Assembly: GCF_014696715.1 (NCBI RefSeq)
Contig: NZ_JACJQO010000013.1
Location: 186,001 to 250,000, forward strand
DNA length: 64,000 bases
Direction: 5' to 3'
Source: Pseudanabaena sp. FACHB-2040
GTDB lineage: Bacteria > Cyanobacteriota > Cyanobacteriia > Phormidesmidales > Phormidesmidaceae
Below the pieces are notes generated by a model, which did not search any database, was not told where the DNA came from, and worked only from the letters and a program-made list of their open reading frames with translations. Shown one piece after another: positions 8,318-20,056 of this stretch (position 1 is the stretch's first letter; each line of letters begins with the position of its first letter). The translations under genes were made by a program, and so were the position numbers.

Positions 8318-9184
8318 ATGGTCAAGGTCTTCGACAAATCGAACTGGGCTAAGCGCCCTGCTGCTGCCTCAAAGCCGCTTTATCAACGGATGGCTGCGAG
8401 CAGTCCACCCGCAGCGCCGCTGCCGCAAAAGTCCTTTCCCTACCACGCCATGATGGCCCTGTTTCTGGGAGGTCAGGTGCTCATGCGCATCTTGCAGGGA
8501 CGCATCAACCGTCAGCACGCTCTAGAACAGATGGTTGCTGCTGGCCCCGAGTCTCTTATGCCAGTCCTGATGACCAATCTGTTTGCAGGCATGATTTTCA
8601 CGATTCAAACGGCTCGTGAACTGGTTCGCTTTGGCAGCCTGCACGCCTTGGGCGGAGCCTTTGCCTTGGCCTTTTGCCGTGAGCTAGCGCCAATTTTGAC
8701 TGCTGCTATTCTGGCTGGGCAGGTCGGGTCTGCCTTTGCTGCCGAGATCGGCTGTATGAAGGTTACTGACCAGATCGATGCTCTCAAAGTCTTGAGAACA
8801 GATCCGGTAGATTACCTGGTGGTGCCCAGAGTTGTTGCCTGCTGTACTATGCTGCCGGTGCTAACTGTGCTGGGATTGGTCATGGGTATTGGCGGCGGCG
8901 TTGCCGTAGCGCACCAGCTTTACGACGTTAGCCCATCGCTATTTCTCGACTCGGTGCGATCGCTTCTAGTCCTCACCGATCTCACGACTGTGCTCCTGAA
9001 ATCGGTCATCTTCGGCGCGATGATAGCGCTAGCGGGATGCACCTGGGGGTTGACTACAACCTGCAGCCGCAGCGTAGGCCGTTCGGCTACCTCCGCTGTC
9101 GTTACTACTTGGGTAGCTCTATTTGTCGTTGACTTCTTTTTGTCTCTAGTTATGTTTCAAAGCGTCGGGGTGGTGAGTCATTAA
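8318..9184 (+). CDS. MlaE/YrbE-family ABC transporter permease (Ycf63-like)
   Basis: A 288-residue integral membrane protein of the MlaE permease family, which moves phospholipid or other lipid between membranes together with an ATPase (MlaF type) and an MCE-domain substrate protein. Five hydrophobic segments follow a 45-residue cytoplasmic N-terminus. The family region appears as AAEIGCMKVTDQIDALKVLRTDPVDYLVVPR, where the motif Glu...Asp-Ala-Leu...Pro-Arg is conserved. Neither partner gene is adjacent, as is common in cyanobacteria where the plastid Ycf63 relative is also separate. No Shine-Dalgarno is visible, so the exact start is soft. Confidence 0.85.
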   Translation: MVKVFDKSNWAKRPAAASKPLYQRMAASSPPAAPLPQKSFPYHAMMALFLGGQVLMRILQGRINRQHALEQMVAAGPESLMPVLMTNLFAGMIFTIQTARELVRFGSLHALGGAFALAFCRELAPILTAAILAGQVGSAFAAEIGCMKVTDQIDALKVLRTDPVDYLVVPRVVACCTMLPVLTVLGLVMGIGGGVAVAHQLYDVSPSLFLDSVRSLLVLTDLTTVLLKSVIFGAMIALAGCTWGLTTTCSRSVGRSATSAVVTTWVALFVVDFFLSLVMFQSVGVVSH

Positions 9185-9223
9185 GGTAGAGGGTAGAAGG
9201 TGGGAAGGCAGAGGGTAGAGGGG
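9185..9223 (+). repeat. Purine-rich short tandem repeat
   Basis: GGTAGAGGGTAGAAGGTGGGAAGG-type purine run beginning right after the permease stop codon. Same class as the tracts at 808-832 and 52845-52877. Confidence 0.55.
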
Positions 9224-9435
9224 AATTGGCCTTGCAAGTGGACACGCATCAGTAGGGGAATCTGTCAATTTTGCTTTACAGATTGTAATAGAACTGTTAC
9301 TCTTCTTAAAAGAGTGAATCTTGAGGCCAAAACGGGTACGTTCTGCAGATACCCCAGAGCAATAGGATTCCTTGCTCCTCAAGCTTGCAACAGGTTCTCG
9401 AGCCGAATGTAATCCAGCTGAATGTTATCCAAGCT

Positions 9436-9460
9436 CCCAGCACTTTGCTGGGTTTTTTTT
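9436..9460 (+). terminator. Rho-independent terminator
   Basis: CCCAGCA-CTT-TGCTGGG, a perfect 7-bp stem with three-base loop, followed by eight T residues. It is the most canonical terminator in the window on the rightward strand. It lies 250 bases beyond the permease stop, so either the permease has a long 3' untranslated region or an unannotated short RNA ends here. It is 13 bases from the end of the converging sbcC gene. Confidence 0.85.
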
Positions 9461-9472
9461 GGCCCTCTCGCT

Positions 9473-12235
9473 TCAACTCTCTCGTTCTATCAAAATGACG
9501 TTTTCGGTAACCTTTTCAAAGGTGTCGTCATGGCTGATAACGAAGAGCTGACGGAAGGATTTGATGCGGGAGATGGCCTCGGCCAGACTTTCTCTGCGAG
9601 GGCGGTCCATGTTGGTGGTGGGTTCGTCAAAGAAAGCAATATCGATGTCGGCCAGCACCTTCAGGAGAGCTAACCGCACAGCCAGAGCGGCGCACATCTG
9701 CTCACCTCCCGATAGGTTAATAAAGCGGCGGCGATCGGGGCCTTCCTGCACCAGAATCTCATAATCGCGGGTCCACTCTAGGGCTACGTTGGGGCGATTT
9801 AGCAGCTCCCGAAACAGTCGGTCAGCTTCCCGAGAAATGCTCTGGACGTAGCACTCGCTGATGCGGGGACCGGCTTCTTTGTAAGCATTGCGGGCAAAAT
9901 TCACAAATCGCTTGATGCGATCGCGCCTCAAGCGCTCCTGCTCGGCCCGGTTTCGTTTTTGGGTCGTCTCTTGTAGGGCTGCTAGCTGCTGCTCCAGCTC
10001 GGCCAGCAGTTTTTGCTGCTGAGGCAGGCTGCCGCTGAGGCGATCGGCCTGCGATCGCATTTCCCCATACTGGCCCTCAATTGCTGCTAGCGCCGCCGGA
10101 TCAAACAAGGCTTGCTGAGCAGTGTAGTCTTGCTGCAGGTGCGATCGCTGCTGCTCTAGGCTCTCAATGGTCTGCTCGGTGGCTGTCAGTTCTGCTAAAA
10201 GTTGGGGCTGCTGCTCAGCGGCCTGCTGATTCTGTAGATAGAGCGAGTGGCCGGTCCAATGGGTCTGCTTAATGGTCTGCTGTTGGGCGACCTGCAGATC
10301 CAAGTCAGCAAAGGCTTCTAGCTGAGTCTCTAGATCGGCTATCTGCTGGTGCCAGGCTTGCTGGTCAGCGCTCTGTTGGTTGTAGGTTGTCTGTAGCTGA
10401 GAACGATCTTGAAGGGATTTTTCGAGCAGATGGCACTGCCCTTTCGGATTGCCCAAGGCTGCTAACGTCTGGTTCAGGGTGCGCTGCTCTTCCTGTAGCG
10501 GGGCACCTGCCTGTAGCCGGGTCTGGAGGGTTTGTTGCTCTGTCTGCCACTGCTGCTGTTGAGTCTTGAGCACGACCAACTGCTGCTGCTGGACTGGCAG
10601 CTGAGCCAATTCACCCCGGTACTGGTACCGCTGCTCCACCGCTTTGCGGGAATCCTGCAGCCGCTGGCGGAGGGTGCTGGCATCGGTCTGGCTAGCCAAA
10701 TCTTGCAAAATCTCTTCTACCTGGCTCACCAGAGTGTGGTTGAGGGCAACCCCTGACTCAATGGCGCTTTTTAAGGCAGTAACAGCAGTAGCAGACAGCA
10801 CCGGAGTAGTAGCCTGCAGCGAAGCTAGTGTTTGCAGCGCTTCGTCTGCCTGGGTTTTGTACTGGCCAATGTCGGTTTGGCTGTTGGTGACCAGGGTCTG
10901 CAGTTCTTGCTCAAACTGGCGGGCGGCCTCTAAGCGGCTGAGCTGCTGCTGGATGCGATCGCACTGCTGCTCTAGTTCTGCAATTTCTTCGACTAGTGGC
11001 TTCAGGCGCTGCAGCCTACCCAGCGCTGTCTCTAGCGTAGCGGCTTGCTGCTGGCTTTGCTGGCTCTGCTGCTGCAGATGTTGCAGCTGTAGGCTGATTG
11101 GGTGAAGCGCCTGAAGCTGCTGCTGAACTTCGCTGAGCTGTTGCTCTAGCTGAGACTGTTCTTGGGCTAGGGGCTGCAGCCGGGTGAGTTCTTGTGCCGT
11201 GCTGTCTAGAGACTCTAGCTGCACCTGCAGCCGGGTCAGAACGGCCTGCTTTTTCTCGGCCTGCTTCTGCACTGCTCGTAGCTGTGTCTGTAGCGTTTGC
11301 CGCGCCTGCTGCTGTTTACTCAGGGCCTGTAGCTGAGCTTCGGCCGCTTGGTACTGCTCATAGGCCGCCTGGTTGGCCTCACAGATTGCTGTGGCCTGCT
11401 TGGCCTGCTCCAAGGACTGCCTCAGGCGAGCACTGACTTGGGTTTTGCCCTCGATTTGGCTGCCCAGAGTTTGCAGCTGACTTGAGAGCGCCTGCAGCTT
11501 TTGGGCCTCGGCCTGCAGCCTGCCTCGCTGTTCCTGCAGATCTGCTAGCGCCAGTTCTAAAGCCTGCAGCTGAGCCTGATTCGCCTGAATTTCCTGCGCG
11601 ACTGCCTGCTGTCTGGCCTGCAGGTCAGGCAGCGCCTGTAAGGCTTCTTCGTACTGAGCAATCTCTTGTTTGACGGACTCAACCTGATTCTCAGCATAGC
11701 GCCGCAGGCTATTCATCTGTTTATAGGCCGCTTTATACTCTTCTACTTTGAGAATGGCGTCGAAGACGGTTTTGCGGTTTTCAGCAGTTTGCAAAAAATC
11801 GGCGGTAAAGGTGCCCTGGGGCACGCCAATGGTGCGAGCAAAGAGCTGGGCCAAGTCAGTGCCGGGGCCAACGCCCAAGTGCTGCCGCAGCCAAGGCAGC
11901 ACTTCATCTTTAATACGGGTATAGGGCAACCGTTCGTTGAGCTGGGGATCGTAAAGGGTGTAGCCTCGCTGGGTGCAGCGCTGCACTTCGTAGGTGCGCT
12001 GATCGCGGCTGGAGATAAAGGCCACGGTTACCTGGGCGCTGCTGCTGCCGTTGCGGATTAAGTCTTCCTTGGCATAGTCACCCTGGTGGTTAAACAGAGC
12101 CCAAGCAATGGCTTCTAAGAGGCTAGTTTTACCTGCTCCGTTTTCTCCACAAATGGCGTTGGTGCCGGGCTGAAATTCAAAGTAGCGATCGCGATGGGTC
12201 TTGAAGTTCTTCAGGGTAACAGACAGGATTTGCAT
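9473..12235 (-). CDS. sbcC: SbcC/Rad50-type SMC-like ATPase
   Basis: A 920-residue Rad50/SbcC ATPase. The Walker A box GENGAGKT is at residues 30-37, followed by an ATP-dependent DNA-end-binding N-lobe; a Gln-rich coiled coil fills about 180-800; the C-lobe carries signature LSGGEQ near 842, Walker B IAFFDEPTTNMD near 866 and the switch VISHDD. With SbcD it would open hairpins and process DNA ends in repair. The hook region at mid-coil reads LAALGNPKGQCHLLE with one Cys, and I find no CxxC zinc hook anywhere. No sbcD gene is in the window. The strand ends 13 bases from the terminator of the converging permease gene. Starts MQILSVTLKNF, as is typical. Confidence 0.9.
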   Translation of the reverse strand: MQILSVTLKNFKTHRDRYFEFQPGTNAICGENGAGKTSLLEAIAWALFNHQGDYAKEDLIRNGSSSAQVTVAFISSRDQRTYEVQRCTQRGYTLYDPQLNERLPYTRIKDEVLPWLRQHLGVGPGTDLAQLFARTIGVPQGTFTADFLQTAENRKTVFDAILKVEEYKAAYKQMNSLRRYAENQVESVKQEIAQYEEALQALPDLQARQQAVAQEIQANQAQLQALELALADLQEQRGRLQAEAQKLQALSSQLQTLGSQIEGKTQVSARLRQSLEQAKQATAICEANQAAYEQYQAAEAQLQALSKQQQARQTLQTQLRAVQKQAEKKQAVLTRLQVQLESLDSTAQELTRLQPLAQEQSQLEQQLSEVQQQLQALHPISLQLQHLQQQSQQSQQQAATLETALGRLQRLKPLVEEIAELEQQCDRIQQQLSRLEAARQFEQELQTLVTNSQTDIGQYKTQADEALQTLASLQATTPVLSATAVTALKSAIESGVALNHTLVSQVEEILQDLASQTDASTLRQRLQDSRKAVEQRYQYRGELAQLPVQQQQLVVLKTQQQQWQTEQQTLQTRLQAGAPLQEEQRTLNQTLAALGNPKGQCHLLEKSLQDRSQLQTTYNQQSADQQAWHQQIADLETQLEAFADLDLQVAQQQTIKQTHWTGHSLYLQNQQAAEQQPQLLAELTATEQTIESLEQQRSHLQQDYTAQQALFDPAALAAIEGQYGEMRSQADRLSGSLPQQQKLLAELEQQLAALQETTQKRNRAEQERLRRDRIKRFVNFARNAYKEAGPRISECYVQSISREADRLFRELLNRPNVALEWTRDYEILVQEGPDRRRFINLSGGEQMCAALAVRLALLKVLADIDIAFFDEPTTNMDRPRRESLAEAISRIKSFRQLFVISHDDTFEKVTENVILIERES

Positions 12236-12310
12236 AGCCCGGTAATTCAGCGAACGCTCTGCCCACCAGCATAGATCGCGGCCTTGAAAATTGGGGCTGC
12301 GACTGCAGTG

Positions 12311-15193
12311 CTACTGAGGAACCGTCGTCGTGCAGACTGGGGCTGTTTCTGTTTGAGTGCACCAGACTACGATGACAGGCTGAGACATTGATGGTGGCAG
12401 CGCAGTCCCTCCAGGCAACGCCGAGCTGTTCGCCGGAATGCTGGCAGCCATATAGGGGAGGGCTAGGGCAAAACCGGGGGCGGCGGTAGCAGCCATTGCA
12501 GACCTCTGAGCGATCTGCGTTTGGACGGCAGCCAAAAGGGCCGTGGGGGCAACTCTGAGGTCGGTCAGAAATGACCGTAGAGCCTTAGGAGTAGGCGTTG
12601 AGGCCGAGTCTGCTAGGGCTTTTGCTATTTCGCCTGAGCCTGTTTGATTAGAGCCAGCAAAGCCAGGTAGAGAACCGAGGGCAGATGATTTAACCAGGGG
12701 AGCGGCCCCGTCGCCAGGTTGAGCCTGTAAAGCCGCTTTAGCTTGGGTGTCGGCAGCGCTGTTTGTCAGATACTCGCCCACTCTGTATTGGCCGTAGGCA
12801 GATAGCATGCCCAAGACCACTGAGGCCGGAATCAAGCACTGCATGGCATGGCGCTTCCACTGCCGTTTACGGTCTTCTCGCTGGCTGGTGACGAGGTACT
12901 GCTGCGCTAGGGACGACAGCCAGTGTCCCTGAGTTTTCTGAAACTCATCGGCATCTCGTAGGCGGCTGCCGGTCAGCAGATATTCGGGGTGGGTTGGGTA
13001 GCCGTGTTGCTGCCACTCGGTAGCGGCGGCTTCTAGGCGGCGCTGTAGCCAAATGATGTGGCGGTTTTCCTCTAGCCATTGCCGGAGCAGGGGCCAGGAG
13101 CGAATTAGGGACTCGTGCACAATGTCTAGAGTTGGCACTGGCCTGCTGGTTTCGGCGACAGGGGCCTGGGTGCGCTTGAGCAAGCTGGCAATAACTCGGG
13201 AACTGTCCTGCTTCAGAAACTTAGGTGTAGTCCAGGTCGCTTCTGGCAAAGCCACGCCATCAAGGTTGCTGCTTGAGGGAATGGTTTCGTGGTTGACGAC
13301 AACCAGATGGGCCTCGACCAGCTTAGACAGAGTTTGAACGACCAGCACATCGGAAAAGGCGGTTGTCATGAGCTCGCTCAGACAGGCTCGGCGGCGGCTG
13401 TCTTCGGTCCCTTCACCCAGCTCACACAGGCTCAGGAAAATTCGCTGGGCGACCTTTTGCTCCGCCTCTGTTAGGCTCTCAAAGAACTGGGTAGCCCGCT
13501 GGTTGAGCAGGTTACGGACACCCCCTAGCTCTGCGTAAGCTTCTAGAGTGAGTTTGGGGGCGGCTTGGCCGCTGGGGTCTTTTTCGCGCCGCCGCCAGAG
13601 TTCCTGCAGTGCTAGCTGTAGCAGGGGCAGTTCACCGGGGGCACTGACCACATCCAGCATGAGTGTATAGATCAAGTTGGGATCGTAGCGCAGGCCGACT
13701 TTCTCCAGCGGTTTGACTACGGCAGCTTTGACCTGCTCATAGGCCATAGGCGACACGGTCAAGTAGTGCTCAGTGACGCGGGCATAGAAATCAGGATAGG
13801 GGCGCAAGCTCTCGATCTGGTCTGAGCGCAGCGCGATCACGATATGGAGCGGTAGGCTGCCGTCTTTTAGAACTTCGCTCAAGCAGTGGATAAACTGCGA
13901 TCGCGCGGCGCTGTTTTTCTCCGGGTCAGCTTCAGTCCGACTCACCTGAGCGGGTAAGACTCGCTCAAACTGGTCGATTACTAGCAGCAGCCGTTTGGAG
14001 GGGTGGTTGGTCTGGCTGTCGTTGAGGGTTGCTCGAACTAGCTGGGCTAGGCCAGGCCCGCCTGCCTGCAAAAAGCTCTCTGCTCGACGCAGCTGATCGG
14101 CCCGCTCGATACCTTCAGCATTGGGTTCAATGAAGGCTTCAGCTAGGCTCTGCAGAGGGTTGAGGTCAGGCGTGATTTGGCGAATGTCCCAAACCACTTC
14201 TCCTGAAGCTGATTGAGACTGGCGCAGTTGGGGAATGAGCCCCGCTTTTAGCAGAGATGTTTTGCCGATGCCAGATGCTCCAACCACGGCACAAAACGAT
14301 GAACGCTCAACGTAGCGAGCAAGCTGGCTGGTAATTTTCTCGCGGCCAAAGAAATGTCCAGCATGGGCTTCTTCAAAGGGGTTTAGACCTCGAAAGGGGC
14401 AAAAGCTGTAGCTTAGGTGCTTTAGCCGATCTAGCGTGGTGGTGGCAGCAGCGGGGACGGCGGCAGGGGTTCCCGAAGCGCGAGTCAAGACAATATCGCT
14501 GCCTGAGCTTTCAAACAGGGGCTGCTGGATTTCGCCCTTCAGCTCGCTGCTGACCACTTCGGTCAGGTGGTGGCCGTTGACGATACCGCCTCTAGATTTG
14601 TAGGGGTTGAGCCCCGATAGCAGGGCTTTGGTAAAGACGCTGTGCGAGCCTTCGAGGGCTTCGTAGGCAGGTTCGTACTCGCGAGAAGCGGCCATGAACA
14701 GACGGTCGGTACCGTCGTTCGCACCCGGATCGGCTTCTAGGAAGTTCAGCAGTTCACCGCTATGGCAGCAGTCTAGCCAGAGGATGCGCTGGCGCACCGG
14801 GCTTTCCTGCAGCAGTCGCCGCAGCCAGAACAGAGATACGCCAAAATTGCCGGAATTGGGGTCGGCATCGCTGGTGGCTAGATAGCCCTCGCGAATGCCC
14901 ACATTGCGTTGAAGACCGTGGCCTGAGTAGTAGAAAACAGCCGTTTGAGGGACGTTCTTGCCGGTCGGTTTGAAGAGACGGATCAGCGACTCTTCTAGCA
15001 TTCGCGTTGTGATTCCGGCGCTTTTTGCGATCGCAGGTTTTCCACCCTGGATCGTTTCCGGCATCCGGTACACCCGGAACTCACCCAGGCTTTCTAAACA
15101 GCGAGCAATCGCTTCTGCATCTTGAGCAGGAGCATTGAGACTTGGCAGTTTTTGGTAGGCATTAACGCCGACTACTAGAGCATCCCTTGACAT
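12311..15193 (-). CDS. Caspase-domain (orthocaspase) nSTAND ATPase with membrane segment
   Basis: A 960-residue protein. Residues 1-235 are a caspase-family (C14) protease with catalytic His92 in YYSGHG and Cys143 in DCCHSG. From 265 the segment FCPFRGLNPFEEAHAGHFFG opens an nSTAND1-type NTPase with Walker A GASGIGKTS (305-313), Walker B LLLVIDQFERVL near 415, and a winged-helix region near 580-740. A hydrophobic span lies near 785-805 (CLIPASVVLGMLSAYGQY). The last 150 residues are Ala/Pro/Ser-rich without the WD40 or TPR sensor repeats usual downstream of nSTAND1. Such proteins are thought to cleave targets after sensing a trigger, in programmed death or antiphage roles. It is 75 bases upstream of the leftward sbcC gene. 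Confidence 0.85.
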   Translation of the reverse strand: MSRDALVVGVNAYQKLPSLNAPAQDAEAIARCLESLGEFRVYRMPETIQGGKPAIAKSAGITTRMLEESLIRLFKPTGKNVPQTAVFYYSGHGLQRNVGIREGYLATSDADPNSGNFGVSLFWLRRLLQESPVRQRILWLDCCHSGELLNFLEADPGANDGTDRLFMAASREYEPAYEALEGSHSVFTKALLSGLNPYKSRGGIVNGHHLTEVVSSELKGEIQQPLFESSGSDIVLTRASGTPAAVPAAATTTLDRLKHLSYSFCPFRGLNPFEEAHAGHFFGREKITSQLARYVERSSFCAVVGASGIGKTSLLKAGLIPQLRQSQSASGEVVWDIRQITPDLNPLQSLAEAFIEPNAEGIERADQLRRAESFLQAGGPGLAQLVRATLNDSQTNHPSKRLLLVIDQFERVLPAQVSRTEADPEKNSAARSQFIHCLSEVLKDGSLPLHIVIALRSDQIESLRPYPDFYARVTEHYLTVSPMAYEQVKAAVVKPLEKVGLRYDPNLIYTLMLDVVSAPGELPLLQLALQELWRRREKDPSGQAAPKLTLEAYAELGGVRNLLNQRATQFFESLTEAEQKVAQRIFLSLCELGEGTEDSRRRACLSELMTTAFSDVLVVQTLSKLVEAHLVVVNHETIPSSSNLDGVALPEATWTTPKFLKQDSSRVIASLLKRTQAPVAETSRPVPTLDIVHESLIRSWPLLRQWLEENRHIIWLQRRLEAAATEWQQHGYPTHPEYLLTGSRLRDADEFQKTQGHWLSSLAQQYLVTSQREDRKRQWKRHAMQCLIPASVVLGMLSAYGQYRVGEYLTNSAADTQAKAALQAQPGDGAAPLVKSSALGSLPGFAGSNQTGSGEIAKALADSASTPTPKALRSFLTDLRVAPTALLAAVQTQIAQRSAMAATAAPGFALALPYMAASIPANSSALPGGTALPPSMSQPVIVVWCTQTETAPVCTTTVPQ

Positions 15194-16038
15194 TTGACCA
15201 CACCTGATGGAAGAGAGAGAAGCAGTTGAGCGGTTTGATACCTGCGGCTGAAAAAGTTCTTTAGGTTTAGCAGCAGGGAGACAGAAAACAGAAGCCGGAG
15301 CGGTTTATGCAGGGCTATCTGCAGGGCTTAAAAAGTTGGATTTAATGATTGAAGTCCTAAATCAAAAAAATCAAACTTTTTGTGCCAGAACAGCAGTTTG
15401 ATGAAATTAGAGATAGCTTTTATGCTATTTCGCCTTCGATCTGCTCGTGTTTCTGACGATCCTGGAAACCAGCGCCAAAAGCTTGATCAAATTAAACATA
15501 GCGAACAGTAAAAATTCTTAGCAGGGGGGTGAAACCCCCTTAAATCTCTTTGACTTGCATGGAAACAAACTAGCTTTTTTTGTGATCCGAAAGATCACGA
15601 AAAGTGCACTGTTGGCTTTAACGAATACCCCTAACAAAAGTCTCTTACAGAGGGTTTTATAAAATTGAGATAAATAGTTACAGCTGCAAAGCTAGGAAAT
15701 CTCCGTGGAAAGACGGAGGTACATAAGTACCTAATACGTTTGGCGTAAATTTTGGAATTAAATGATGAGCCTACAAATATGACTGTTTGGGCTCAGCGCC
15801 CTGTTTAAGCCTTAGCTCTACTTACCTTAAGGAAGCGACGCCATCTTTAACTTTTCAAAAAGGAAATTTGATACTCCCGAAAATGTGCTGCTCGGCCGCC
15901 TTCTAACTACGCCTACAGTCGCCATCGGCAGGAGATGCCCCACCGCAAGAAACCTATTAAAAAGGGAGACACAAGCACCAAAGCTCTCTGCTCCCCGTGT
16001 CTCCCGCTCCTGCTTCTTCCCTTCCAACTACCGAAACC
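15194..16038. other. 845-base non-coding region between the caspase and DUF456 genes
   Basis: AT-rich at 15340-15860. I see several small hairpins: GGGGG/CCCCC near 15526-15541, GTGATC-CGAAA-GATCAC at 15582-15598 preceded by seven T residues, and CTCCGT/ACGGAG near 15700-15720. A 9-bp inverted repeat GGGAGACAC (15964-15972) and GTGTCTCCC (15997-16005) flanks pyrimidine-rich repeat DNA. A 36-codon open frame starting near 15413 has no ribosome site. The caspase promoter must lie here. No gene is supported. Confidence 0.5.
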
Positions 16039-16764
16039 CTAGCCCCCGTAGAGGCGAGACCAGGTTGTAACGATAAAAACAACAATGGTGAAAATAGCGA
16101 GCAGCCCCTGAAGCAGGTTACCCACCAGGTTGCCCACCACAATAGCAATGCCTACCTTAAAAGACTGCTGAGTACGCTTTGAGAACGGCAGTTCTCGCCG
16201 ATACAGAAACTCGCCGATAAAAGCTCCCAGCACCGTACCAAAGACCAGCCCCAAGATGGGGCCACCGATCGGTAGGGCCGGCAAAAACCCAAATAACCCC
16301 ACCAGCATGCCTACAACAGCCCCAATCTGACCCCAGTTGCTGGCCCCGACCCGCTGCGCCCCAATAATGCCCGCCAAATAATCGGCCACAATACCCAGAA
16401 TCAGGGCTGCGATCGCAACCCCCAAAGCCAGCCAAAGGCCTGTAAAGCCCGTAACGAAACCCCAAACTGTGATCGCAGCTACGATCAGCGTGATCCCTGG
16501 TAGTGCCGGGATAAAGGCCCCAGCCACGCCCACCAGCATGACCAAAATCAGCACCCAGTAGAGCACTGACTGCCACACCACAGCATTGGTAAACGCCGTT
16601 GAAAACTGGGAAAGCGCACTGGCGACAGCGTGACCTGCCTGGGCGTACCAATCTCCAAAGGCGTGGACAAGTTGGGAGACCTGATGGGGAAATTGCGAAA
16701 AAACGTCGGTTAACTGGTGGGATAACTCGGGCAGGGCGAGCGCTAGCTGAGGTAGGGCTGTCAT
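16039..16764 (-). CDS. DUF456 family membrane protein
   Basis: A 241-residue integral membrane protein. An amphipathic N-terminus of about 65 residues precedes the DUF456 fold, four to six hydrophobic segments rich in Gly: VLYWVLILVMLVGVAGAFIP, PALPGITLIVAAITVWGFV, LALGVAIAALILGIVADYLA, GAVVGMLVGLFGFLPALPIG and a C-terminal span ending TTWSRLYGG. The Pro-Ala-Leu-Pro-Gly motif and the IGGPILGLVFGTVLGAFIGEF segment are typical. The family's biochemical role is unknown. It stands between two long non-coding spacers. Confidence 0.85.
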   Translation of the reverse strand: MTALPQLALALPELSHQLTDVFSQFPHQVSQLVHAFGDWYAQAGHAVASALSQFSTAFTNAVVWQSVLYWVLILVMLVGVAGAFIPALPGITLIVAAITVWGFVTGFTGLWLALGVAIAALILGIVADYLAGIIGAQRVGASNWGQIGAVVGMLVGLFGFLPALPIGGPILGLVFGTVLGAFIGEFLYRRELPFSKRTQQSFKVGIAIVVGNLVGNLLQGLLAIFTIVVFIVTTWSRLYGG

Positions 16765-17001
16765 AGGGGGAAGGTAGGGAGCTTATTTTTGCCAATCTTA
16801 TTTGCCAATATTACAGAGTCCACCTCTGGGCGTCGGGTGCAATTTCCCTACCTGCAACCGGATTTATGACCCTTATTACCAATTCAAGCTAGTCCATCTA
16901 TCAAATTTATTCATGCAAATCTATCTGCCTTATGGTTAGGGCGATTGGCAAAACGGAGGATACAGTCAAAGCCAGGGAATTTTTGCTTGAAGGGGGCTTT
17001 T

Positions 17002-18004: not shown

Positions 18005-20056
18005 ATGAGCCTTTGTATCAACCCGCAATGCCCCCAGCCCAATCATTCGGAAAACAGCCTGAATCGCTACTGTCAGAGCTGTGGTTCAGATCTTTTGTTG
18101 CAGGATCGCTACCGAGTGATGCGGCTGATCAGCAGCCAGAGTGGTTTTGGTAAGGTCTACGAAGCCTACGAAAGAAACATCCCCAAAATCCTCAAAGTTC
18201 TGAAAGAATCTCATACCCTTAACGCCAAAGTGCTGGAACTGTTTCAGCGTGAGGCGATGGTCTTGAGTCGGCTGAACCACCCCGGTGTGCCCCAGGTAGA
18301 TGTAGATGGCTACTTTGTTTATGCCCCCAAGGGCAGCCATCAGCCGCTCCACTGCATCGTCATGGAAAAGATCGATGGCCCCAATCTAAAGCAGTGGATG
18401 GTGCAGCAGGGAAACCATACCATTGGCGAACAGCAGGCCCTGCTGTGGCTAACGCAGCTAGCTGATGTGCTGCATCTGGTGCATCAGCAAAACTACTTTC
18501 ACCGCGACATCAAGCCTGAGAACATCATGCTGCGCGGCAGCGGCCAGCTGGTGCTAGTGGACTTTGGCGCAGCACGGGAAATGACCGAAACCTACCTGGC
18601 CCATTTGGGAGCCAGCGGCATTACCACCGTTAGTTCCGCTGGATACACGCCGCCTGAGCAAGAGCAGGGACAGGCCGTACCCCAGTCTGATTTCTATGCG
18701 CTGGGGCGAACGATGATCTATCTGTTGACAGCCAAAAACCCCAGCGACCCGACTATTTATGACTCTCGCACCAATGCCCTGAACTGGCGCATTTATGCGC
18801 CGCAGATTTCTCAAGGGTTCGCTCACTTAATTGATGATCTAATTGCGCCTAGAGCCATCGATCGGCCTCAGACCACTGAGGAAGTCTTGCAGCGGCTCAT
18901 GGCGGTGCGCTCTGCCCAATCTCAGCCGCCGCCGATCATGGTCGAGCCAGTTACGGTACCCGAAATGCCCTCTTGGCCGACGACGACGCTGGGAAACTCC
19001 CCTGAGGCAACTCAGCCGCAGACGACTACTCAGATTGAGCAACCACTGCAAAAGCGGTGGATATGGTCAGGTGTGGCTATTCTGGCCCTGCTGATTGGGG
19101 TGCCTGCTGTGTGGTCGGGGGTGTTGCGATCGCGCGATACGACTCCATCGGCTTCTCAACCGGCTCCGGTGCAAACGGTATCCCTAGCTCGGACCTTGGG
19201 GGAACACACAGGGCCAATCAAGGCACTGCTGTTGGTCAATGGCAACACCCTGATTAGCGGCGGCGTAGACAGGAAAATTCTAATTTGGAACCTAAACCAG
19301 GAAACGCCAGCGCGGATTTTGGAAGGACATAAAAGCGTTATCAATACCCTAGCCCTCAGCACCGATCAGCAGACTCTCTACAGTGCAGGGGCTGATCAGG
19401 ACATCTTAATTTGGGATATTGCTTCAGGGCAGCTCAAGCAAACTTTGCCATCGGCCCACGACAGCCCAATTAACGCTCTAGCTATCAGCCCTGACGGCAA
19501 AATCTTGGCTAGCGGCAGTGCTGATGGCATGGTGAAGCTGTGGGATGCTGAAACTGGAGAACTGATTGAGCAGTTGAGAGAGCAGGGTCCGCTCGTCAAT
19601 ACGCTTCTGTTTAACCGCAATGGGGAGTCTTTAATTGCCGGGGGGGCAGCCCTTGAGACCTGGAACCTTCAGACTCAAGAGGAGACAGAATTCCAGGCTA
19701 GCCAGAATTTTATCAACAGCTTAGCGACCAGCCCCGACAACCAAGTTCTGATCAGCGCTAGTGCGGATAAGACAGTTCGCTTCTGGGATCTTGCCACCGG
19801 AGATTTGGTCGATACTGTGACCGCACACGATCGATCAGTCAATGATGTGGTGGTCAGCTCCAACAGCTTGACGTTTGTGACTGCTAGCGCTGACGGCACC
19901 CTGGTAGTTTGGGATATGGATTCAAGGCAGCCCATAGAGCGGCTTCACGGGTTTGACTCTGATATCTACCGCTATGTGGAAGGCCCCGCACAACAGGTTA
20001 TTACCACCGGCGGCAGTGACAACACGGTTAAGGTCTGGCAAAAATCTTCCCCGTAG
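18005..20056 (+). CDS. Ser/Thr protein kinase with zinc ribbon and WD40 repeats
   Basis: A 683-residue cyanobacterial-type kinase. A four-Cys zinc ribbon (Cys4, Cys9, Cys23, Cys26) opens it. The Hanks kinase domain covers about 35-295 with SSQSGFGKVYEA glycine loop, FHRDIKPENIML catalytic loop, VDFGAAR metal loop and GYTPPEQ activation segment, so the catalytic residues look intact. A Pro/Thr linker leads to one membrane span near 352-370 (IWSGVAILALLIGVPAVWSG), then about six WD40 blades in the periplasm (for example SADGMVKLWDAETGE, SADKTVRFWDLATGD). It probably phosphorylates cytoplasmic targets in response to an outside protein or ligand. A PP2C phosphatase gene lies 7 kb away. Confidence 0.9.
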   Translation: MSLCINPQCPQPNHSENSLNRYCQSCGSDLLLQDRYRVMRLISSQSGFGKVYEAYERNIPKILKVLKESHTLNAKVLELFQREAMVLSRLNHPGVPQVDVDGYFVYAPKGSHQPLHCIVMEKIDGPNLKQWMVQQGNHTIGEQQALLWLTQLADVLHLVHQQNYFHRDIKPENIMLRGSGQLVLVDFGAAREMTETYLAHLGASGITTVSSAGYTPPEQEQGQAVPQSDFYALGRTMIYLLTAKNPSDPTIYDSRTNALNWRIYAPQISQGFAHLIDDLIAPRAIDRPQTTEEVLQRLMAVRSAQSQPPPIMVEPVTVPEMPSWPTTTLGNSPEATQPQTTTQIEQPLQKRWIWSGVAILALLIGVPAVWSGVLRSRDTTPSASQPAPVQTVSLARTLGEHTGPIKALLLVNGNTLISGGVDRKILIWNLNQETPARILEGHKSVINTLALSTDQQTLYSAGADQDILIWDIASGQLKQTLPSAHDSPINALAISPDGKILASGSADGMVKLWDAETGELIEQLREQGPLVNTLLFNRNGESLIAGGAALETWNLQTQEETEFQASQNFINSLATSPDNQVLISASADKTVRFWDLATGDLVDTVTAHDRSVNDVVVSSNSLTFVTASADGTLVVWDMDSRQPIERLHGFDSDIYRYVEGPAQQVITTGGSDNTVKVWQKSSP

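Follow-up and report, generated by a model that had tools for sequence, protein, structure and literature searches.

Domain organization of CASP

The window, i.e., the whole stretch of 64,000 nucleotides that was analysed, contains two neighbouring genes, here called CASP and RAD. Positions are those of the window unless a locus name is given, and every feature of the two genes lies on the minus strand. CASP (12311..15193) is an intact ORF with an ATG start, and encodes a 960-aa protein that consists of a caspase domain, an nSTAND1 domain, a predicted membrane span and a tail. RAD (9473..12235) encodes a hookless, archaeal-type Rad50-like ATPase of 920 aa. In the preliminary description CASP was placed 75 bases upstream of a Rad50-like gene on the same strand, and this was confirmed; the 75-bp gap occupies 12236..12310 (a region with no strand of its own), and no terminator-like site was found in it on the coding strand.

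The caspase (Peptidase_C14) domain covers residues 5-229 (14507..15181; Pfam PF00656, E 1.7e-15), and with 57.8 bits against a cut-off of 21.4 and the His/Cys dyad present, CASP belongs to Peptidase C14. The dyad was reported as intact at His92 and Cys143, and both residues are found exactly there, His92 in YYSGHG (14918..14920) and Cys143 in DCCHSG (14765..14767), each invariant in 43 homologues. The nSTAND1 NTPase with its C-terminal part covers residues 266-732 (12998..14398; Pfam PF20703, E 3.2e-101), and its membership is equally clear (340 bits against a cut-off of 27.1, with Walker A and B intact). In Walker A (GASGIGKT, residues 305-312, 14258..14281), G305, G310 and K311 are invariant in the 43 homologues and position 312 is T or S; in Walker B (LLLVIDQFE, residues 402-410, 13964..13990), D407 and E410 are invariant, which bears out the earlier statement that the Walker boxes are intact. 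No WD40, TPR or other repeat or sensor domain of CASP was matched in Pfam, and the reported absence of the usual C-terminal WD40/TPR sensor therefore holds.

CASP is 87% identical to its nearest relative. Between the window and this relative, a within-genus comparison, dN/dS is 0.028 for the caspase domain (residues 1-240), 0.071 for the NTPase and 0.26 for the tail. These values indicate strong purifying selection on the protein and make protease activity very probable; judged from its sequence, CASP is very probably a working protease. A search for solved structures gave no relative of CASP at E<=0.01.

Upstream of CASP, the 845 bp at 15194-16038 contain no ORF of at least 80 aa and no Rfam match, and no RNA family was found anywhere in 9000-17000. 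A scan for sigma-70 promoters found none, a result that says little for cyanobacteria. A protein kinase fused to C-terminal WD40 repeats is encoded at 18005-20056, and this gene is also near CASP and RAD in genera g1, g5 and g13. At another locus (L056:8896-16000), two more long ORFs with caspase-like N-termini lie divergently upstream of CASP and form a small caspase cluster with it. Paralogous caspase-nSTAND proteins, several of them annotated as pentapeptide-repeat proteins, are also found on cyanobacterial plasmids (records H1-H15), most of which are predicted to be conjugative.

Membrane span and C-terminal tail of CASP

Hydropathy analysis predicts a membrane span at about residues 783-801 (AMQCLIPASVVLGMLSAYG; 12791..12847). 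Its Kyte-Doolittle hydropathy is marginal in CASP itself (1.43), but at the same place values of up to 2.16 are reached among the relatives, and the span is clear in many of them. The low-complexity tail, residues 811-960 (12314..12763), is about 150 residues long, is rich in Ala, Thr, Ser and Pro, and evolves fast; it showed no match and no known sensor domain in Pfam, even at E<=10. The preliminary description gave this end of the protein as a membrane span followed by a 150-residue low-complexity tail. The span can be retained with the reservation above, but the tail is not merely of low complexity and ends in a conserved motif, QPVIVVWCTQTETAPVCTTTVPQ (12314..12382).

A motif of this type, such as WWVSPDDPSVMIQIWCTRT, ends 24 of 31 CASP tails, a count inflated by the relatedness of the sequences; shuffled tails gave a mean of 2.0 and a maximum of 7. 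The motif is present in genera g1, g6, g7, g13 and g14 and absent in g3, g5 and g11. This spread across the tree suggests that it is an ancestral element. No Pfam family matched the motif. A possible origin as a WD40 relic was considered and rejected; the likeness to the last strand of a WD40 blade is one seen by eye only, and nothing supports it. AlphaFold2, run on CASP with three sequences only, gave a mean pLDDT of 46, mostly below 30 in the tail and unreliable in the caspase domain as well, a model too poor for judging whether the tail hides a domain.

RAD, the Rad50-like neighbour

The neighbour was initially named sbcC, and this name had to be dropped. Against the SbcC model TIGR00618, RAD scores 82 bits, far under the cut-off of 478.5, and a CxxC zinc hook is found in none of the 38 RAD orthologues read. 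The true SbcC of the same genome is encoded on another contig (G000:C5:274166-277156), scores 536 bits and has a CPLC zinc hook, and the true SbcD is likewise encoded elsewhere in the genome. The best NCBIfam model for RAD is the Rad50 model PRK03918 (214 bits, also under its cut-off), and the best solved match is archaeal Rad50. RAD is an ATPase: it has a Rad50 ATPase head and an intact Walker B with the catalytic Glu kept (FFDEPT), and it has no nuclease domain. It is a second Rad50 homologue of the genome, archaeal-type and separate from SbcC.

At E<=1e-100, a search of the 390 genomes of the class detected RAD in 180. In family f1 it is single-copy and near-universal, and it is widespread in cyanobacteria that lack CASP of this type. 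RAD proteins look the same in length and layout whether or not the genome has CASP, and nothing resembling a gating insert was seen. These results bring into view a Rad50 homologue that is widespread among cyanobacteria and, in the members sampled, lacks the zinc hook.

The genome also contains a second Mre11-like gene (423 aa, L118:2662-3933, on contig C7 of G000), whose best model is archaeal Mre11, with a score under the cut-off. It lies downstream of ribosomal-protein genes, the adjoining run looking like prfA, rpmE, rpsI and rplM, and weak matches of the SbcD model to frames of about 423 aa recur across family f1. Our guess is that this Mre11-like protein partners RAD.

Conservation of the CASP-RAD gene pair

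Gene order was compared in 65 genomes, all of family f1 of the cyanobacteria, and CASP of this type is present in 48 of them. Three CASP genomes with short contigs were left out of the linkage count, and G084, where what adjoins RAD is a fragment of a diverged CASP, was counted apart. The preliminary description had raised the question of whether the two genes stay adjacent in other genomes, and they do so in 40 of the 44 assessable genomes, from seven genera, although these linked genomes share ancestry. The counts were compiled by hand from whole-genome searches, which replaced a peptide-pattern scan that had yielded three loci only. In 33 genomes RAD lies directly downstream of CASP on the same strand; the distance from stop to start was measured in 15 same-strand loci and ranges from 57 to 247 bp. 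In the seven genomes of genus g3, RAD is divergent from CASP and 1.7-3.9 kb away. The two genes are apart in four genomes (G006, G075, G081 and G086), and genus g7 has additional unlinked CASP copies.

The surroundings of the pair differ among genera. In g1, g5 and g13, further neighbours are conserved around CASP and RAD, and not the pair alone, whereas in g3, g7, g11 and g14 those other neighbours are essentially gone within several kilobases and CASP and RAD remain. When neighbours were clustered, CASP was the only family found near RAD in all seven genera, and the next best reached three. Cluster F23, which is found in several genera, lumps together proteins that differ in size and strand; an EAL-like domain common to them is the apparent reason. 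A locus without CASP is seen in G031, where RAD directly adjoins the gene that lies next to CASP in the related genome G026. In g3, a conserved 98-aa TPR-like ORF lies between the divergent genes, on the strand of RAD (L059:6580-6876, L060:4456-4752 and L080:8886-9182), and in one g3 genome a transposase-like gene is also found there.

Evolutionary history

The short CASP proteins form a monophyletic clade (support 100/100), apart from the 1,620-1,830-aa proteins of other families. Both long relatives that were scanned by Pfam have WD40 repeats, and no long relative was found next to RAD; the smallest distance between the two on one contig is about 65 kb. The CASP tree is unrooted, and a loss of WD40 in the short clade and a gain in the long clade both fit it; loss is the simpler reading, because the WD40 form is so common. 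Linkage to RAD and absence of WD40 map to the same deep branch, and they therefore count as one event and not as a repeated correlation.

The RAD tree fits vertical inheritance. It agrees broadly with the CASP tree and the basal genus g11 is linked too, and the linkage therefore looks ancestral in family f1. Later, CASP was lost several times and RAD was kept, which means that RAD does not depend on CASP. RAD was thus resident before CASP, and CASP, which lacks the sensor of its relatives, sits beside it as a partner that is not always present.

Possible functions of the gene pair

As a tentative explanation, which we consider quite possible though short of probable, we propose that CASP and RAD belong together as a conserved unit of two genes, in which RAD supplies the trigger of a membrane-tethered caspase switch. 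In such a unit, the nSTAND1 switch would hold the membrane-tethered caspase in check, and the trigger would come from RAD in place of the missing C-terminal WD40 sensor. RAD, probably acting with the second, Mre11-like nuclease of the genome, would engage abnormal DNA ends or structures, such as those of phage replication or severe damage. Engaged RAD would then promote ATP-driven assembly of nSTAND1 and thereby activate the caspase, and proteolysis by CASP would kill or arrest the cell. Here we infer a physical or regulatory coupling of CASP and RAD, the DNA signal, the membrane topology and the death or defence outcome from comparative sequence analysis. The sequences themselves show the domain anatomy of CASP, its intact and strongly conserved catalytic sites, its conserved adjacency to RAD, the absence of WD40 in its clade and the hookless form of RAD.

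Several observations are in favour of this unit. First, the two genes are adjacent in 40 of 44 genomes of seven genera, with short gaps where they share a strand. Second, CASP is the sole neighbour of RAD common to the seven genera, and the pair outlasts its surroundings in g3, g7, g11 and g14. Third, the trees of the two genes broadly agree, and their linkage looks ancestral in the family. Fourth, the sensor-less clade is monophyletic, and RAD does not adjoin the long relatives that carry WD40. Fifth, the caspase domain is under strong selection and the catalytic residues are invariant. In addition, there are precedents for Rad50-like proteins as likely sensors that drive effectors (Lamassu, PMC10586767) and for bacterial caspases in defence (PMC12799240). 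Other observations are against it: RAD was kept after several losses of CASP, CASP is away from RAD in four genomes and has extra unlinked copies in g7, linkage and WD40 loss are one event on one deep branch, the g3 pair is divergent with an intervening TPR-like ORF, and RAD homologues are widespread in cyanobacteria lacking this CASP.

The main rival of coupling is passive retention of gene order, which we regard as only slightly less likely than the proposed unit. CASP, as one of many cyanobacterial caspase-nSTAND conflict proteins, would by chance have come to lie upstream of RAD in the ancestor of the family, and inheritance or shared transcription would have kept it in place without the two being functionally linked. 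The restriction of linked genomes to one family agrees with this, as do the vertical inheritance of RAD independently of CASP, the repeated losses of CASP that leave RAD behind, the four unlinked genomes and the conservation of the whole neighbourhood in g1, g5 and g13. However, it fits poorly with the pair that stays in g3, g7, g11 and g14 though the remaining neighbourhood is gone, and with g3, where proximity outlives the switch to divergent orientation.

CASP may instead be a guard. Some retrons are thought to guard RecBCD, and CASP would similarly watch over the resident Rad50-like complex, checking that it is intact or active, and would fire once a phage or toxin disables it. The near-universal, single-copy RAD and the optional CASP are as expected of a guardee and a dispensable guard, and docking to the guardee could be the role of the conserved motif at the C-terminus. 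However, the motif is missing in the linked genera g5, g11 and g3, a phage inhibitor of RAD is not known, and a guard does not need to be encoded beside its guardee. We hold this reading to be improbable. Proteolytic control, in which the caspase would cleave RAD or its Mre11-like partner and switch DNA processing on or off, as the canu caspase activates its nuclease, has a precedent in the caspase-nuclease loci (PMC12799240) and would suit a protease and a DNA-processing protein kept as a pair. Against it, RAD has no nuclease domain and has the same length and layout, with no gating insert seen, whether or not CASP is present; we hold this reading, too, to be improbable.

Comparison with known systems

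CASP resembles the cyanobacterial orthocaspases with a caspase-NTPase-(membrane)-WD40 layout (reviewed in PMC7475262). Its caspase and nSTAND1 regions are mostly 50-57% identical to those of the long forms (families f15, f24 and f25), which have the same hydrophobic span after nSTAND1. Unlike CASP, whose clade ends in a short tail, the long forms carry C-terminal WD40 repeats (Pfam, two scanned) and are not adjacent to RAD. CASP is therefore not a caspase-nSTAND-WD40 sensor protein, with no repeat match even when the tail was searched at E<=10. The caspase domain resembles NF047832, the model of the EACC1-associated caspases (Kaur et al. 2020, PMC7159879), but its 90.8 bits are under the cut-off of 140 bits, which places CASP outside this group. 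The Avs (AVAST) models did not match CASP, and PADLOC gave a caspase hit (E 2e-16) together with three other, weak hits (E >= 0.016). RAD differs from both SbcC of SbcCD and archaeal Rad50 in having no CxxC zinc hook and in scoring under the cut-offs of both families.

In the canu caspase-nuclease loci, a bacterial caspase acts in defence and activates its nuclease (PMC12799240). As in these loci, a caspase gene is paired with the gene for a DNA-directed enzyme in CASP-RAD. However, CASP has an nSTAND1 domain, an Ig-like fold was not detected in it, and no metallo-beta-lactamase-fold (MBL-fold) nuclease lies beside it among the window neighbours scanned (MlaE, RAD, DUF456, EamA, kinase-WD40 and DUF1995).

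Lamassu (DdmABC) combines the Rad50-like LmuB, a likely sensor, with variable LmuA effectors that include predicted proteases; LmuB is about 650 aa with a Walker B that generally has Glu changed to Gln, and a small LmuC gene, lacking in some systems, lies between effector and LmuB (PMC10586767). The CASP-RAD locus shares with Lamassu the pairing of a Rad50-like coiled-coil ATPase and an effector, for which a protease is one option. RAD differs in its 920 aa and in its FFDEPT with intact catalytic Glu; by Walker B and size it was rejected as an LmuB, and the PADLOC LmuB profile is unspecific, matching true SbcC too. The CASP-RAD locus also has no LmuC, with no small gene in the 75-bp gap here nor in the 57-247 bp gaps of the measured same-strand relatives, and the 98-aa ORF of g3 is TPR-like. 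Moreover, the effector CASP is itself an NTPase switch. By the features tested, the CASP-RAD locus is thus a member of neither Lamassu nor canu. Among the papers searched, none combined caspase, nSTAND and sbcC.

The proposed two-gene unit could be taken further, to a module for immunity or cell death: a Rad50-like sensor of DNA structure that has no zinc hook, and not a fused WD40, would activate a membrane-tethered caspase-nSTAND protein; we put this forward as a rather unlikely, speculative reading. Such a module would be the caspase equivalent of Lamassu, with a resident DNA-processing ATPase recruited into it. The signals of bacterial caspase-nSTAND proteins are largely unknown, and the sensor-less, RAD-linked clade offers a concrete candidate signal, DNA ends or structures, as well as a natural comparison with its WD40-bearing relatives.
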